Source: Flavobacterium sp. (GTDB taxonomy: Bacteria; Bacteroidota; Bacteroidia; Flavobacteriales; Flavobacteriaceae). From it: a stretch of 64,000 nt of DNA. A program made the translations under genes and the position numbers. The stretch's first letter is position 1, and each line of letters opens with the position of its first letter. Shown piece after piece: positions 20,820 through 49,444 of this stretch. The stretch spans positions 42,332 to 106,331 of the forward strand of contig NZ_SEBS01000024.1 in NCBI RefSeq assembly GCF_004211145.1, read 5' to 3'. The notes under the pieces are model-generated. The model worked only from the letters and a program-made list of their open reading frames with translations. It searched no databases and was not told where the DNA came from.

Positions 20820-23486
20820 ATGGATCTCAACACCTACAACGACAAGCGAAATTTCCAAAAAACCTCCGAACCAAAAGGCGTCAAAAAACCGTCCAAAGGC
20901 GAATTGCGTTTCGCAGTCCAAAAACATGCAGCGTCGCATCTGCACTACGATTTCCGATTGGAGATCGATGGCGTTTTAGTGAGTTGGGCGGTTCCGAAAG
21001 GCCCGTCGGGAAATCCTCAGGACAAGCGCTTGGCGATGCATGTCGAAGACCATCCGATGGATTACATCGACTTCGAAGGCACGATCCCCAAAGGCGAATA
21101 TGGAGGCGGAACCGTCATGGTCTGGGACATCGGAACCTATGAACCTGAAGGCGAAATCCCGCTTGCCAAGCAGAACGCCGAAATGAAAAAGCAGCACAAA
21201 TCGGGTTCGATAAAAATCGTGTTGCACGGCGAAAAACTTAAAGGTTCGTGGGCGCTCGTCGAAATGCACGGACGAGGTGAAAACCAATGGTTACTCATCA
21301 AGCATAAAGACGAATTCTCGGGCAAGGACATCGAATACAATCCCTACTCCATCCTGACCAAACGCGATTTCGACGCGATCGCGAAAGGAGACGATGTCTG
21401 GAGTTCGGATAGAAAAAATGACGGCACGAAAAAAACCGCGACCGAACAGAAAGCCTCGCTCAAAAAAGCGATCTCAAGTAAAAAGAAAACCGCGAAAGAA
21501 GAATTTTCGCCCGAAGATCTATCCGAAGCCGAACGCCTCGACGAATTCCCGAAAGACTGGAGCCCGCAATTGGCGACACTTGCCGACGAAGCGTTTGACA
21601 ACGACGATTGGTTGTTCGAAACCAAGTTCGACGGGTATCGCGCGCTTGCTGAAATCGAAGACAAGAAATGCCGACTGGTTTCTCGAAACGGAATCTCATT
21701 CAACAAGAAATATCCTGAAATCGTCGCACTCCTCGAAGGTGTTTCGCCGAACATGATCCTCGACGGCGAAATCGTGATCGAGGACGACAAAGGCAAAAGC
21801 CGTTTCCAATGGCTGCAGAACCACGACGAAAATCCCGATCGCGGCACGATGAAATTCTACGTGTTCGACATCCTGTATTTCGGGAATTACGATTTGCGGT
21901 CGCTCGATTTGCTGCAGCGCAAGAAAATCCTCAAGGCGATCCTGCCCAAAAAGAAGAACATCATCTTCTCCGACCACATTGTCGGCGATGGGATAAAAGC
22001 ATTCAAAAAAGCTGAAAAGGAAGACGGCGAAGGCATCATCGCCAAGAAAATCGCCTCGAAATACACGAACGGAAAACGCTCGAAAGATTGGCTCAAGATC
22101 AAGACCGAGAAACAGCAGGAAATGGTAATAGGCGGATTCACCGAGCCGAGCGGCAGTCGCAAAGGCCTGGGCGCGTTGCTGTTCGGATATTACGACAAAG
22201 GCGAATTCATGTATTCGGGCAAAGTCGGAAGCGGATATACTGAAGAAATCCTGAACGATCTGCGCACAAAACTCGACAAACTCGAACGCAAGACGCCCGC
22301 ATTCAAAAATCCGCCAAAAGAAAAAAACGTGCATTGGGTCACGCCAAAACTCGTCGCGAACGTAAAGTTCTCGGAATTCACTGAGACGAATTCGATGCGG
22401 CATCCGGTCTACCTCGGTCTTCGCCCTGACAAAAAAGCACAGGACGTAATCCTCGAATTTCCAAAAATCGAAACCGAAACCATAAACGAAATGGATACCA
22501 AAAGCAGCCCCGATAGCAAGTCTGGCATTCCAAAGCGCAACGTGTCCAAAGCGCAGCGTGTCCAACGCGCAGCGAGTCCCAAAAAAACGTCGGTGAAAGA
22601 CATTCCGCAATTGTCAAAAAAAGTCGAATTCTCCAACCTCGACAAAGTATTCTGGCCCAAGGAAAAGATCACCAAAGGCGACGTTATCGCGTATTATAAT
22701 TCAATTTCCGACTACATCCTGCCCTATCTCAAGGATCGACCGCAATCCATGAGGCGCACGCCCGACGGTATAAAATCCGAAGGTTTCTTCCAGAAAAACG
22801 TCGCCGACACCGCTCCGAAATGGGCGAAAACCATCGAAATCCAATCCGATTCCAAAACCGAGCCCGTAACCTGGCTGTTGTGCAACGACAAGGATACGTT
22901 GTTGTACATGGCGAACATCGGATGCATCGAAATCAATCCCTGGAGCAGCCGCATCAAAACGCTCGACCATCCCGATTATATCATCTTCGACCTCGACCCG
23001 AAAGGCGCGCCGTTGAAAAACATCGTAAAGACGGCGCAAAAAGTTAAGGAAATCCTGGACAGCCTGAACGTTCCCGCATACATCAAAACGTCGGGCGGAA
23101 ACGGACTGCACGTGTTCATCCCCGTAAAACCGAAATATTCGTATGAGCAGACACGCGACTTTTCGCACCTCATCAGCCAAATGGTCCACAGGGATTTGCC
23201 CACGATCACGAGCCTCGAGCGGATGCCGTCCAAACGACAGGGCAAAGTCTACCTCGACTTCCTGCAAAACGGAAAAGGCAAAACCATGGCGAGCATCTAT
23301 TCGTTGCGACCGCGTGAAGGCGCCGGAGTGAGCACGCCTCTCGAGTGGGACGAGATCAACGACGACCTCGATCTAAAGGCGTTCAACATCAACACCTTGC
23401 CCGAACGGCTCGAGAAAAAAGGCGATTTGTGGGAGAATTTCTTCAACGATGCGATAGACTTGAAACTGCTATTGAAAAGCATGTGA
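20820..23486 (+). CDS. ligD: Multifunctional DNA ligase D (phosphoesterase-ligase-polymerase)
   Basis: An 888-residue three-domain LigD. The N-terminal 3'-phosphoesterase (about 30-150) shows HYDFRLEIDG, HVEDHP and GEYGGG. The central ATP-dependent ligase (about 225-540) has the adenylation site KFDGYR (Lys about 269) and DGEIV. The C-terminal AEP polymerase (about 605-880) starts at VFWPKEKITKGD and has the catalytic FDLDPKG (about 723). With Ku it makes a complete two-gene NHEJ system for end cleaning, fill-in and sealing. The linker between ligase and polymerase (about 569-586) contains three copies of the 16-bp repeat found upstream, kept in frame. The start follows the array directly, with no Shine-Dalgarno. 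Confidence 0.96.
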   Translation: MDLNTYNDKRNFQKTSEPKGVKKPSKGELRFAVQKHAASHLHYDFRLEIDGVLVSWAVPKGPSGNPQDKRLAMHVEDHPMDYIDFEGTIPKGEYGGGTVMVWDIGTYEPEGEIPLAKQNAEMKKQHKSGSIKIVLHGEKLKGSWALVEMHGRGENQWLLIKHKDEFSGKDIEYNPYSILTKRDFDAIAKGDDVWSSDRKNDGTKKTATEQKASLKKAISSKKKTAKEEFSPEDLSEAERLDEFPKDWSPQLATLADEAFDNDDWLFETKFDGYRALAEIEDKKCRLVSRNGISFNKKYPEIVALLEGVSPNMILDGEIVIEDDKGKSRFQWLQNHDENPDRGTMKFYVFDILYFGNYDLRSLDLLQRKKILKAILPKKKNIIFSDHIVGDGIKAFKKAEKEDGEGIIAKKIASKYTNGKRSKDWLKIKTEKQQEMVIGGFTEPSGSRKGLGALLFGYYDKGEFMYSGKVGSGYTEEILNDLRTKLDKLERKTPAFKNPPKEKNVHWVTPKLVANVKFSEFTETNSMRHPVYLGLRPDKKAQDVILEFPKIETETINEMDTKSSPDSKSGIPKRNVSKAQRVQRAASPKKTSVKDIPQLSKKVEFSNLDKVFWPKEKITKGDVIAYYNSISDYILPYLKDRPQSMRRTPDGIKSEGFFQKNVADTAPKWAKTIEIQSDSKTEPVTWLLCNDKDTLLYMANIGCIEINPWSSRIKTLDHPDYIIFDLDPKGAPLKNIVKTAQKVKEILDSLNVPAYIKTSGGNGLHVFIPVKPKYSYEQTRDFSHLISQMVHRDLPTITSLERMPSKRQGKVYLDFLQNGKGKTMASIYSLRPREGAGVSTPLEWDEINDDLDLKAFNINTLPERLEKKGDLWENFFNDAIDLKLLLKSM
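22527..22574 (+). repeat. Three in-frame 16-bp repeat units inside ligD
   Basis: Units begin at 22527, 22543 and 22559, with a decayed fourth at 22575, in the same 16-bp phase and with the same CCAAAGCGCAGCGTGT word as the array before ligD. Three units are 48 bp, so the reading frame is preserved; they encode a basic linker (SKRNVSKAQRVQRAAS). Confidence 0.9.
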
Positions 23487-23493
23487 TTTTTTT

Positions 23494-23614
23494 GGGCGTG
23501 CCGGCGGCTGTCAATTTCGTCCGTTGCGCAGGTTATTACAAAGCCGCCGTCGGGCTGACCCGCTGCAATCTTTTGCTTTCCAGGCAAAAGGATTTCCGCT
23601 CGCATCCCTCACGC
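23494..23614 (+). repeat. Dispersed 121-bp intergenic element, copy 1
   Basis: Starts GGGCGTGCCGGCGGCTG 7 bases after the ligD stop. Its core is GCCGCCGTCGGGCTGACCCG, CGCTGCAATCTTTT and AAAAGGATTTCCGCTCGCA, and it ends ATCCCTCACGC. Copies 2 and 3 (40138-40262 and 49234-49358, both inverted) share the order of these blocks and the length. It codes for nothing supportable. Confidence 0.8.
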
Positions 23615-23682: not shown

Positions 23683-23722
23683 ATTATCCTATAAAACTGA
23701 GCGAATCTTCTAAACGATTTCG

Positions 23723-23758
23723 CGTCAGGCACTCAGGTACTCAGTCACTCAGGCACTA
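23723..23758. repeat. CTCAGGCACT-type short repeat
   Basis: CAGGCACTCAGGTACTCAGTCACTCAGGCACT runs into the last codons of the T9SS gene. The same 7-8-base words recur at 41586-41720 (inverse) and 41818-41851. Confidence 0.7.
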
Positions 23759-26700
23759 CCTTTTAACCATTCGAAGCGTTTTCGCGAAAGTTCCCTGTGT
23801 TACGATCACGTTATAAACACCTGAAGGATAACGATTACCGAACGCCTGCATCTCGATTTGATCTGCAGCGAATTCACGGTCGTCAACCAACTTGCCCAAC
23901 ATGTCGTACACTCTTACTTTTACGTTTTCTTCACTTGATGTGTCCATGTCCAAAGCGAATGTCTCGGCGTATGGATTCGGATAACCAACGGCTCGGAAAG
24001 CGACGGTAGGCAGTGCTTCTTCCTCAAAATTACCACGCGCAGCTCCAGGTGCGGTTACCAATTCGGCTTCCCCGAAAGGAGACCAGACGCCTGAGGTCAT
24101 CACGGCAACCTGAACGGCATATTGACCGCCCGGAACATATCCCGGAACGTTGCCGAAACTGAAATAATGCGCCGTACGGTCGACGATAATCGTCGTAAAC
24201 GGAGCGACCATCAATGACAATTGGAATCGGTATGACGTCGCGCGGTTCAAACTTGTCGTATAAAACAACGATGTCGCCGTTGCCGCAGTTCCAGGATTCG
24301 TGATCACGGGAACTACAGGAGTCGATACCGAACAAGGCGCGCCGTAACCTGAATAGGTCGTGCTGCTGCCCGTTTTCACGGCTACCTCAATCGTGTAAGT
24401 AGTTCCGTAAACGTATGTGGCCAACATCGGTAAAGAGAACCAATGCGTCGTGCGGTCAAGTGTCTGTACTTGATTTGGCGCCGTGATGTCGGTCGTGTTC
24501 GTGATCCTGAAACGATATCCCGTAACGCCCTGCAAACTTGTAGTGGCGATCAACGTATTGATATTGGTCAAAACGATACCGCATTGTGAAGGCGTAACCG
24601 ATGCCGCGCCTCCAGGTCCCAAAATAGCAGGAGTCGAAACCAAACAGCTATCTCCATAATAGTTGAGCCATATGCCGTTGCGGCGCAATTGAACCGAAAT
24701 TGAATACGTCGTCGCGTAATCGTACGTAGCAAGTTGCGTCAATTGGAAGTTCGGCGATGTACGATCGATCGTCTGAACGGCGCTGGTTGTCGTGTTCACG
24801 ACGCGGAATCGGTAGCCATCAACAGGCGCTCCGAAGCTGACCGCCCCAATAAGGGAATTGATCGTTGCCAAAGTGGTTCCGCATTGCGAAGCCAAAACTT
24901 TAGAAAACAATTGACTGCCTTCGTCTATCGTGCCATCGCAATCGTCGTCGACCCCGTTGAAGGCGACTTCAGTAGCTCCAGGATTTACGGCAGCAAGTCC
25001 ATCGTCGCAATCGGTATTGTCGAGGATATATCCGACAGGTTGATTACAAGCCGACTGGCTGACTTCAGCATCGCCATAGCCATCACCGTCAGCATCGGCA
25101 TACCAAACAAGCGGCGTACAAACCGTCACGTTAAGAGAATAGTCTTCAGACTGTCCGTATTGTCCGCCCGTACATGGATTGGTCAGGACGCCAGCATCGG
25201 CACTGTATAATTTTTTAATTCTCATTCGCGTGGTTCCGCCGAGTGCAGTTGCAGGCACCAGAATCGAAAATTGTGATTGGACGGCGTCAATACCTGTTGA
25301 GTTGAGCACCGACCCGCCGTTGTATATTTCATCGACATCGGCAAAATCACCATCTTGGTTCCAGTCGACGAAAACCCTGAAGTTTGTCGTGAAGTTTCCA
25401 CCTGTATTTCCCTTCAAGGTCATTTGGTACGAGGTTTCGGTAGTCACATTACCTGAAATGGCAATAAAATTTTCAAGTGACGGCGTTCCGTCAATCGTAT
25501 TACTCGTCGTATTATTTATGCCTGCAAAATTAACCAGCGTGATCGGTTCTACATCGACCGAATACGCGACGGTTGAACAATACGGCAGGAACGGGTCGAC
25601 TTGAGTCGTAAAACTCCATTCCGCACAACCTGTCGCATCGCCTCCGGCTGTTGATTTCGGCACCACTCTCCAATAGAATGTCGTCGAATAGCCCGTTACA
25701 TTGAAATTGGCGGTCGTCCCGGGGACATTCGCCACAAATGTCAAAGATCCCGATGTGGTTCCCGCGTAAACATCGTATGATGTCGGTGCAGGGCCGCTCG
25801 TTGGGGCCGTCCAAGAAAATGCCACCGTTCCGGCAGTCACGCCGGTCGCTCCGTTGGCAGGTGAAATAGCCGAACCTGAGCATTGCGTCGGATTAGGACT
25901 TACCGTGAGCACACCGCTGTTAAACGTCGTGCCATTCCAGAAATTGCCATTGGTACCATCGGTTCCTCCGTATACGAACGGACCGCCTGAAAGACTGAAT
26001 CGCGTCGCATAATAATAAGTTCCGGGAACTAATGAAGCACCAATGTTCGCTTGATATTCATCGTTATTGCTTACGTGGCCGGCATTGTGCGTAGCGAGTG
26101 TCCAGTTCGTCCATGTATTTGGATTTGTGTTCGACCCAATCGGACTTACGCCGACCCATGCCTGGATTCCCGCCGCTTGACCCGAATAACCCGGTTCGAC
26201 GTCGGTTAATCCGCCTTCATAGACCTGACCGTAAACAGTTGCTGTATTTCCGGCCAGGATAGTGGCGGTGGCAGGGAATTGTAGATTTACATAATCTGGC
26301 AGCACAGGCGCCGTAATATTGACAATGTAGTCCTCGGTCTCGCCATAAACATATGATGTAGTAGCATAATTAGTCGTGCCTGCCGTCGCCTCTATATTGA
26401 CGACACGCATCCCGGTAATACCTAATGTTGCGGCCGCAGGAACCGTAAACGATCCTGTCACGGTATGCCCGGCAGACGTAACACTTGTACCTTGACTGTA
26501 TACTTGTTCACCCGCATCGGCGAAATCTCCGTCTTTGTTGTAATCGATATAGATCTGGAAAAAATTTCCAAAAGCATTCGTCGAGCACGAAGTCATCGTC
26601 AGCGAGAAACTTACGCTACTGCTTTGCTGAAGGTTCGGCGCTGCAACAGTGGTGCTGTAATTACTGTATCGTCCTGCTATCGAACCGGAACCCGGCGCGG

Positions 26701-39965: not shown

Positions 39966-40137
39966 TGGTTTTAGTTTTATTATTGGTTTCAGGTTTGGCG
40001 TTGTCCGGAAGACATCGAATCGAATCAACGAATCAACTCATCAACTCATCAACAACCTAAAGTTACATCTTTGACACAACGCCCTGATTCCATTTAAGTT
40101 TTCCTTAAGAACGGATGTGGGAATCTTACAAGCATCG
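39966..40137. other. Intergenic, with ATCAACGAATCAACTC repeat
   Basis: 40014-40061 is a run of AATCAACGAATCAACTCATC words, the inverse of the TTGATTCGTTG words at 44.1-44.4 kb. CTTAAG near 40110 is part of a small palindrome. No gene. Confidence 0.6.
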
Positions 40138-40262
40138 GCGTGAAGGATAGAAGCGGCATCCTTTTTTGAGGAACGAGAAAAAGATATAGCGGATAGCCTG
40201 ACAGCGGCGTTGCCAGAATTTTAAACGGGAGACAAGCCACATCCAAAGCCGGTGGCACGCCC
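40138..40262 (-). repeat. Dispersed 125-bp intergenic element, copy 2
   Basis: Read on the minus strand it begins GGGCGTGCCACCGGCTTTGG 11 bases after the stop of the gene at 40274. It continues GCCGCTGTCAGGCTATCCGC, ATATCTTTTT, AAAAAAGGATGCCGCTTCT and ends ATCCTTCACGC. Block order and length match copies 1 and 3. The 61-aa track ORF here (40126-40311) is rejected. Confidence 0.75.
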
Positions 40263-40273
40263 AAAAGATCAAA

Positions 40274-47730: not shown

Positions 47731-49224
47731 ATGCGTAATTTTATTCTGCTTTTTTCCATAGGATTTTTGATTTGCCTTTCGTCTTGCCGCAGCGATTTCG
47801 AGTTCCAACACAGCGTTGGCGGATTGCGTTTCTCTCGCGATACGGTGTATCTCGACACGGTTTTCGCGAACATCGGCTCGAGCACGTACACGCTCAAAGT
47901 ATACAACCGAAGCGACAAAGACATCAGCATCCCGACGATCCAACTCGGAAAAGGGCTCGATTCCAAATACCGCATCACGGTCGACGGCATGACGGGCGAA
48001 AACAACCGCGTTTTCCACAACGTCGAAATGCTCGCAAAAGACAGCATGTACATTTTCATCGAGACGACTACGGGCGTGGCCGACGCCGATCCAACAACGT
48101 TTTTATACACCGACCAAATCCTGTTCGGGGAAACCGGAAACTTCCAGGACGTCGATTTGGTGACGCTTGTCCAGGACGCATATTTTTTATATCCGAAACG
48201 CGATGAGGACGGGAATTTCCTCGAATACCTGCAGATCGGAGAAGATCTTGTCGAAGGTTTCGTACTCGACCACGCCGATCCCGTGAACGGCGACGAATTT
48301 GTTTTCGGGAACGATAAACCGTACGTGATCTACGGATTGGCCGCGGTTCCGGCGAACGAAACGCTCACGATCCAACCCGGGGCGCGCGTGCATTTCCATG
48401 ATCTCTCAGGAATTATTTTAGCCGACGGAGCGACCATAAACGCTTTGGGCGCGCCATCTACAGCCGATACGCAAGACAACCAGATCATTTTTGAAGGCGA
48501 CCGCCTCGAACCCGATTTCTCGGATATTCCGGGGCAATGGTTCGGTATCTGGCTCACGGGTAACAGTACCGGAAATTTTGCATACGCTACATTAAAGAAC
48601 GGCATCGCTCCTATTTACGCCCAGAATGCGACGGTCAACCTCGATAAAGTACAGATTTACGACAATTCCCAATACGGTATTTACGGACAGACATCGACGA
48701 TTACGGCAACGAACGTCGTGGTGAACTCGGCGGGAACGGCGACCGTTGCGTGCTTGTTCGGCGGAACGTATAATTTTACGCATTGCACAATCAACAACAA
48801 TTTCGTGAGCTCACAGCAAACGGCCGTTTGGCTGAATAATTATGCCGAAGTGGACCAGGCAGTCGTCACCGAGCCGCTTTTGGCAGCAAACTTCACGAAC
48901 TGCATCATCTTCGGGTCAAACCAACGCGAACTTTTGCTCGATAAGAACGACGACGATACGTTCAATTTCAACTTCACGAAATGCCAGATCAAGTACGGAC
49001 AGGTCGGAAACGAATTGTACAACTTCCTCGATGACGAAACGAACATCGTGAAAGGTGGAAATCCGCGATTCAGGAATATTAACGAGAATGAGTTGATGAT
49101 AGGCGAAAATTCGGATGCGCGCGGTTTTGGTATCGATACCGATGTCGACGTCGATATTCTCGAAAACCCGAGGATTGATCCGTTCGATCTGGGCGCGTAC
49201 AACTGGACGACTTTCGAGGATTGA
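47731..49224 (+). CDS. Right-handed beta-helix lipoprotein, hypothetical
   Basis: 497 residues with a lipoprotein signal (FLICLSSC, Cys about 19). An N-terminal beta-sandwich-like domain (LRFSRDTVYLDTVFANIGSS) is followed by parallel beta-helix repeats with Asn-rich turns (GIAPIYAQNATVNLDKVQI, YGIYGQTS). It ends DPFDLGAYNW. Proteins of this build are common flavobacterial envelope lipoproteins; no active-site residues are evident. It follows the T9SS repeat protein by 47 bp and may share its transcript. Confidence 0.8.
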   Translation: MRNFILLFSIGFLICLSSCRSDFEFQHSVGGLRFSRDTVYLDTVFANIGSSTYTLKVYNRSDKDISIPTIQLGKGLDSKYRITVDGMTGENNRVFHNVEMLAKDSMYIFIETTTGVADADPTTFLYTDQILFGETGNFQDVDLVTLVQDAYFLYPKRDEDGNFLEYLQIGEDLVEGFVLDHADPVNGDEFVFGNDKPYVIYGLAAVPANETLTIQPGARVHFHDLSGIILADGATINALGAPSTADTQDNQIIFEGDRLEPDFSDIPGQWFGIWLTGNSTGNFAYATLKNGIAPIYAQNATVNLDKVQIYDNSQYGIYGQTSTITATNVVVNSAGTATVACLFGGTYNFTHCTINNNFVSSQQTAVWLNNYAEVDQAVVTEPLLAANFTNCIIFGSNQRELLLDKNDDDTFNFNFTKCQIKYGQVGNELYNFLDDETNIVKGGNPRFRNINENELMIGENSDARGFGIDTDVDVDILENPRIDPFDLGAYNWTTFED

Positions 49225-49233
49225 TCATCGCCC

Positions 49234-49358
49234 GCGTTAGGGATGCGAGTGGAAAGCCCGCAGTGCGACGCAGGAGCGCGAGGACTTGGAACGGGCAGCC
49301 CGGCGGCGGCTCATTGACTTTTGACTTTACCCAAAACCTTACAGCCGGCGCAACGCCC
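49234..49358 (-). repeat. Dispersed 125-bp intergenic element, copy 3
   Basis: Read on the minus strand it begins GGGCGTTGCGCCGGCTG, then GCCGCCGCCGGGCTGCCCGT, a diverged centre, GGGCTTTCCACTCGCATCCC and TAACGC. It lies 9 bases past the stop of the beta-helix lipoprotein gene, pointing back at it, in the gap before purL. Confidence 0.75.
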
Positions 49359-49444
49359 AAAAAATTATTTTAAAAGTTGAATTTTAAATTTTGGATGTGG
49401 CGATACAATTCATAATTTATAATCCAAAATTAAAAATAACGCAG

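Follow-up and report, generated by a model that had tools for sequence, protein, structure and literature searches.

A possible folded-DNA role for Flavo-1, a dispersed intergenic element of Flavobacterium

In this study, we analysed an intergenic element that occurs three times in a 64,000-nucleotide stretch of Flavobacterium DNA, here called the window. We show that the three copies are members of the dispersed Flavo-1 family; the element is real and widespread and, being part of this family, is already catalogued and not new. What is new is that the full element extends beyond the Rfam model and consists of an outer stem closing two hairpins, with strong compensatory change. Also new are a folding preference for the strand chosen by Rfam, a rarity of wobble pairs in comparison with tRNAs, and ortholog sites that keep the same orientation while the inner hairpins switch, together with the lack of a bias to gene orientation or replication direction and the lack of target duplication. 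The role of Flavo-1 may be that of a folded DNA and not that of an RNA. No description of this fuller anatomy and evolutionary pattern was found in the literature searched, which took in the 2010 paper without its supplementary notes. With the full anatomy, the folding strand, inheritance at fixed sites and module switching, an 'unknown sRNA' becomes a choice between testable alternatives, namely folded single-stranded DNA or RNA, and the full-length anatomy offers a better search model for the annotation of Flavo-1.

Flavo-1 originates from the work of Weinberg et al. (2010), in which it is marked 'RNA? y, cis-regulatory n' (PMC2864571). It is filed in Rfam (RF01705) as an sRNA gene with function unassigned, no function was identified for it in the transcriptome study of Guerin et al. 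(PMC9723704), and a 2022 review counted it with the abundant bacterial sRNA families (PMC9029176). With bounds that include the TTTT preceding GGGCGT, the window copies are 125–129 bp long and lie at 23490..23614 on the + strand (copy 1) and at 40138..40266 and 49234..49362 on the − strand (copies 2 and 3). They score 109.4, 94.6 and 101.1 bits (E-values 3e-28 to 4e-24) with R1, a covariance model that spans the full element and was trained on 20 copies of this genome, including these three. The Rfam model matches copy 2 at 40127..40207 on the + strand with 48.2 bits (gathering cut-off 42 bits), antisense to the orientation in which the element was originally read, referred to below as the finder's strand. 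Copies 1 and 3 score below this cut-off, yet the R1 model clearly identifies them as the same element. As a Flavobacterium, the host belongs to the Bacteroidota, the phylum in which RF01705 is found, and the conserved second-hairpin structure with compensatory change is present in helices 3–6 of the covariation analysis. Core hairpin, host phylum and intergenic location are thus shared; the Rfam model differs in that its 76 positions cover the second hairpin only and include neither the outer stem nor the first hairpin nor the alternative forms of the second, and the present evidence does not favour its class of sRNA gene. The original prediction of one intergenic element in three copies, with the named sequence blocks common to all and in the same order, divergent centres and conserved ends, was borne out, the three copies being alignable from end to end; it had rightly called the sequence known and without described function, but had not recognised it as Rfam Flavo-1.

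Further copies are plentiful. The 5' end pattern has 59 matches in the 4.03-Mb host genome and six in a reversed control, and R1 finds 88 matches at E<=1e-4, which excludes chance; the Rfam model has 66 matches in the same genome. The host is close to F. agri and to the metagenome-assembled genome PMG_227 (G370), in which R1 finds 80 matches at the same threshold. Among relatives in the genus the Rfam model gives 4 to 101 matches per genome; most of the Flavobacterium genomes tested contain tens of copies of Flavo-1. In a phylum sample searched with strict filters, the counts being capped at 11, it is present in 58/396 genomes, including 24/24 of Flavobacterium, and is patchy outside this genus. 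The scatter over two complete chromosomes is even. BLAST searches of phages and plasmids gave no match to the element, and two pattern matches in IMG/VR, which lie in GC-rich phage-like sequence and have no model match, were judged to be due to chance.

On the finder's strand the element reads TTT, GGGCGnn, first hairpin (CGGCGGCT...AGCCGCCG), GGGCT, second hairpin, ATCCC and nnCGC, where the nn of GGGCGnn pairs with the nn of nnCGC and closes the element. In copy 1 (+ strand), the 5' arm of the outer stem, GCGTG at 23496..23500, pairs with the 3' arm, CACGC at 23610..23614, both arms being supported by covariation. The first hairpin (23502..23549; helix 2, also with covariation) contains a variable insert between CGGCGGCT and AGCCGCCG, and the second (23552..23608), GGG...CCC with CCGCT, ATCTTTTG / CAAAAGGAT and CCGCT, is the core that the Rfam model describes on the opposite strand. 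The second hairpin is mostly of type A (CCGYT, ATCTTTTG...CAAAAGGAT, CCRCT), as in copy 1 and, as a variant, in copy 3, or of type B (GGCACTCGCTTTTTG...GAGCTYARACAATGCC) with the same ends. In low-GC flavobacteria the same second hairpin is found inside another frame, GGAGCTATTCCCGCT...ATCGGGGCTA, whose variable pair is Watson–Crick in 31/31 copies. A sister form with this second hairpin but not the usual frame (GGAGCT...TCCCGCT...ATCGGGGCTA; L031–L040, and in the host itself L237:5326 and L238:17554) dominates the best Flavo-1 matches of low-GC flavobacteria. The insert of the first hairpin is sometimes itself a small hairpin, AAAAGCTGNTCGCATTT, which was seen in many copies (L003, L025, L011, L012, L018, L021 and others), apparently nested in some, and may be a separate mobile module. 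At L322 (host contig C18, ~19.2–19.6 kb) the element is ~370 nt long and its second hairpin consists of ~8 tandem units of the ~35-bp GAATCTTTTTGAATTTGTCTCCACTGCGTTTCGCC.

Single-sequence folding energies of the window copies are no better than those of shuffles, and the structural case therefore rests on covariation. Across 80 host-genome copies, 181 cells show two-sided changes that stay paired, compared with 41 +/- 4.7 after shuffling and at most 25 with slid partners, in an alignment fitted to the model with the arms lying within nearly gap-free end blocks. All four Watson–Crick pairs occur at the two variable positions of the outer stem, and two-sided changes are found in 6/7 pairs of the first hairpin. 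This agrees with the earlier proposal of a structured element.

Judged by the 15 consensus pairs, the Rfam strand folds better than its complement: with DNA parameters the pair probability is 0.86 vs 0.63, the Rfam strand being ahead in 101/105 copies, and with RNA parameters it is 0.75 vs 0.44, with the Rfam strand ahead in 93/105. This preference emerges although the model was built on the opposite strand. Deviating cells, counted over 168 copies in the outer, first-hairpin, GGG and CCGYT pairs, comprise 326 two-sided Watson–Crick changes and, as read on the finder's strand, 9 G-T and 15 A-C cells, the latter being G-U on the Rfam strand; 15 tRNA sequences from the same DNA gave 106 two-sided Watson–Crick changes and 19 G-U. 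Relative to two-sided changes, wobble is 3–5 times rarer in the element than in the tRNAs (Fisher p 2e-4 for the Rfam strand and 4e-6 for the opposite strand), the tRNAs being one small control and the element copies being related to one another. We regard this rarity as leaning towards DNA, short of proof. Short GC-rich RNA helices can avoid G-U too. In the stems of the second hairpin, single mismatches are 9 A-C and 0 G-T on the finder's strand, a skew that once more indicates the Rfam strand.

Called intergenic gaps contain 114/128 copies, and the numbers of copies in tandem, divergent and convergent gaps (67, 27 and 20) are proportional to the numbers of such gaps (353, 155 and 101). Within tandem gaps 39 copies face one way and 28 the opposite way, so that orientation to genes is random. 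In the window, copy 1 lies 3 bp after the stop codon of a ligD-type gene, copy 2 is separated by 7 bp from the stop of the unknown 161-aa gene that it follows, and copy 3 lies between a 497-aa gene (stop at 49224, 9 bp away) and purL. The link to stop codons that had been noted there holds in the genome as a tendency and not as a rule: of the copies with a stop codon on the 5' side, 24/59 are within 20 bp of it, and of those with a start codon on that side, 3/55; the proposed placement downstream of genes and codirectional with them is likewise a tendency only. The flanks are T-rich on the 5' side, with a weak RRA at the 3' edge. An intrinsic terminator was rejected because the T run is on the wrong side, preceding the element when this is read on the finder's strand, with no T enrichment 3' of it. 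No replication-strand bias was detected on the two complete chromosomes, with the origin taken at dnaA (25/55 and 35/74 copies), and direct repeats at the flanks equal those of shuffled flanks, giving no sign of a target-site duplication. On the G053 chromosome, 50/74 Flavo-1 copies are on one strand throughout (p 0.003, uncorrected), a skew not accounted for by replication direction from dnaA.

Comparison of ~1.1 Mb of the host genome with 0.77 Mb of PMG_227, whose ligD is 77% identical, indicates how the copies are inherited. Where syntenic flanks made a copy testable, 15/21 have a partner in PMG_227, in the same orientation in all 15, some of the syntenic intervals there being wide (2–5 kb). 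Three further sites are clearly empty, including that of window copy 2, the orthologous interval of which (151 bp) is without the element, and three hold variants that are poorly read by the model. The 60-bp flanks of shared copies are slightly more similar than random (0.19 vs 0.12), and the outer-stem bases agree in 10/15 ortholog pairs, where 3.3 are expected (p 5e-5). Three sites (ligD, purL and L279) show a joint change of both bases in one pair of the outer stem, T-A being exchanged for C-G; in copy 1 this alters TG/CA to CG/CG in its ortholog (L201:8090-8245), and the ortholog of copy 3 is at L202:12633-12807. The second-hairpin type, read by eye from the sequences, is unlike in 8/15 pairs, among them copy 1, which is type A in the host and type B in PMG_227. 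Overall the host has 55 A and 11 B, and PMG_227 21 A and 24 B (p 6.5e-5); the types of the first and second hairpins are independent of each other (p 0.68). Since the outer stems are locus-specific while the inner hairpin types are switched, it is the frames that are inherited and the inner modules that are replaced. An element is found upstream of purL in 0/29 relatives, and downstream of ligD only in PMG_227 among ~20 flavobacteria searched, from which it follows that sites turn over within the genus. The suggestion that the element is mobile thus held in part: copy number varies in the genus and a relative lacks the element at some sites, but the majority of sites are common by descent, without target duplication and without a gene-bearing copy having been found.

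Our preferred reading, to which we give somewhat less than an even chance, is that Flavo-1 is a non-autonomous, modular dispersed repeat and that a putative protein recognises its Rfam strand in the form of folded single-stranded DNA. The Rfam strand folds into the outer stem (GCGnn...nnCGC) closing two hairpins; this fold would act as single-stranded DNA, and the putative protein binding it would once have spread the repeat. Copies would afterwards have stayed at their sites through descent without losing their integrity, and inner hairpins would have been exchanged between them. The anatomy, covariation, rarity of wobble, folding strand, copy number, positional inheritance, module switching and lack of orientation bias all speak for this. 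Against it, target duplication and replication-strand bias are absent, the latter being frequent in single-strand DNA transposons, and no mobilising enzyme was found. RAYT (Y1) transposases are the usual suspects for such repeats, but were rejected as the driver since Y1 genes do not track copy number: G004, G011, G012 and G013 have 12–101 copies (101 in G004) and no Y1 match, and G018 has three Y1 genes and no copies. Adjacency is weak, an element lying within ~1.5 kb of 4/30 Y1 loci where ~2 are expected by an estimate from copy density. The only Y1-transposase-like gene of the host (185 aa; L052, contig C91, ~21.4–23.2 kb) is ~1.3 kb from an element copy. Among the inspected 5'-end matches without a model match there was no gene-bearing (autonomous) copy; these were coding-like sequence or an element with tandem units in the second hairpin.

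Known repeat systems resemble the element in part. REP/REPIN sequences with RAYT are likewise high-copy, intergenic, built of Watson–Crick hairpins and without target duplication, but they are tagged palindromes of 20–40 bp, whereas the element here has a three-part fold of 65–370 nt and RAYT presence does not track its copies. MITEs are also short, non-coding and dispersed; Flavo-1 differs in lacking target duplication, in having complementary ends of only 5 bp, and in that a parent transposon was not found. By analogy only, integron attC sites are similar in that one strand folds, structure is kept more than sequence, and there are a bulged base and a variable terminal hairpin. An attC identity was rejected because the RYYYAAC...GTTRRRY boxes are absent; the element ends in GGGCGnn / nnCGC, and pairs at the corresponding outer positions are free to vary, all four types occurring at nn.

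The main rival to a DNA reading, possible but on balance unlikely, is an RNA function in which the Rfam strand is transcribed, either within mRNA ends or in the form of a small RNA, and the RNA fold serves as a protein-binding site or influences decay or termination. In its favour are the better folding of the strand chosen by Rfam, the modest excess of G-U over A-C there (15 vs 9 in core pairs, 9 vs 0 in second-hairpin stems) and Rfam's class of sRNA, and several 5' transcribed regions of F. psychrophilum hold Flavo-1 matches (PMC9723704). The same study, however, found matches sense or antisense alike, many of them outside transcribed regions, and consistent sense transcription was not reported there (PMC9723704); random orientation to genes, the turnover of the purL and ligD associations and the rarity of wobble also argue against RNA.

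A bolder form of the single-stranded DNA reading, which takes Flavo-1 for a strand-specific single-stranded-DNA recombination module instead of an RNA gene, seems to us distinctly improbable; if true, the outer stem would stay with its locus while inner hairpins were exchanged, amounting to scattered cassette exchange by a putative recombinase. We put slightly less faith still in a double-stranded DNA landmark, such as a cruciform or a protein site serving chromosome topology, in which neither strand would have a function of its own: the strict Watson–Crick pairing and the even scatter over intergenic gaps and complete chromosomes would suit it, but the clearly better folding of one strand would be needless for a symmetric duplex site. 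Least probable are neutral relics of palindromic repeats, their pairing kept by template switching in replication and not by selection, since, for all the highly variable hairpin loops, the copy filled with tandem units and the decayed copies (L297:2683), unpaired blocks and a distant 5-bp outer stem are kept while the flanking DNA is nearly unalignable between species.

Several observations concern the surroundings of the copies. The ligD-type gene before copy 1 (window 20820–23486) has 3'-phosphoesterase, ATP ligase and primase–polymerase domains, which suggests bacterial end joining. Short degenerate intergenic repeats (cactcaggcact, gagtgcctgagtgcctga, gttcagggttcaggg) adjoin several copies (window 23720–23760; L026, L013 and the L202:949 region). 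Finally, L007:143-575 and L029:1502-1933 are near-identical 432-bp stretches (97%), in each of which the element is followed by a sequence resembling an rRNA operon leader with TAnnTTTG-type promoters, and their homology ends exactly at the 5' edge of the element.
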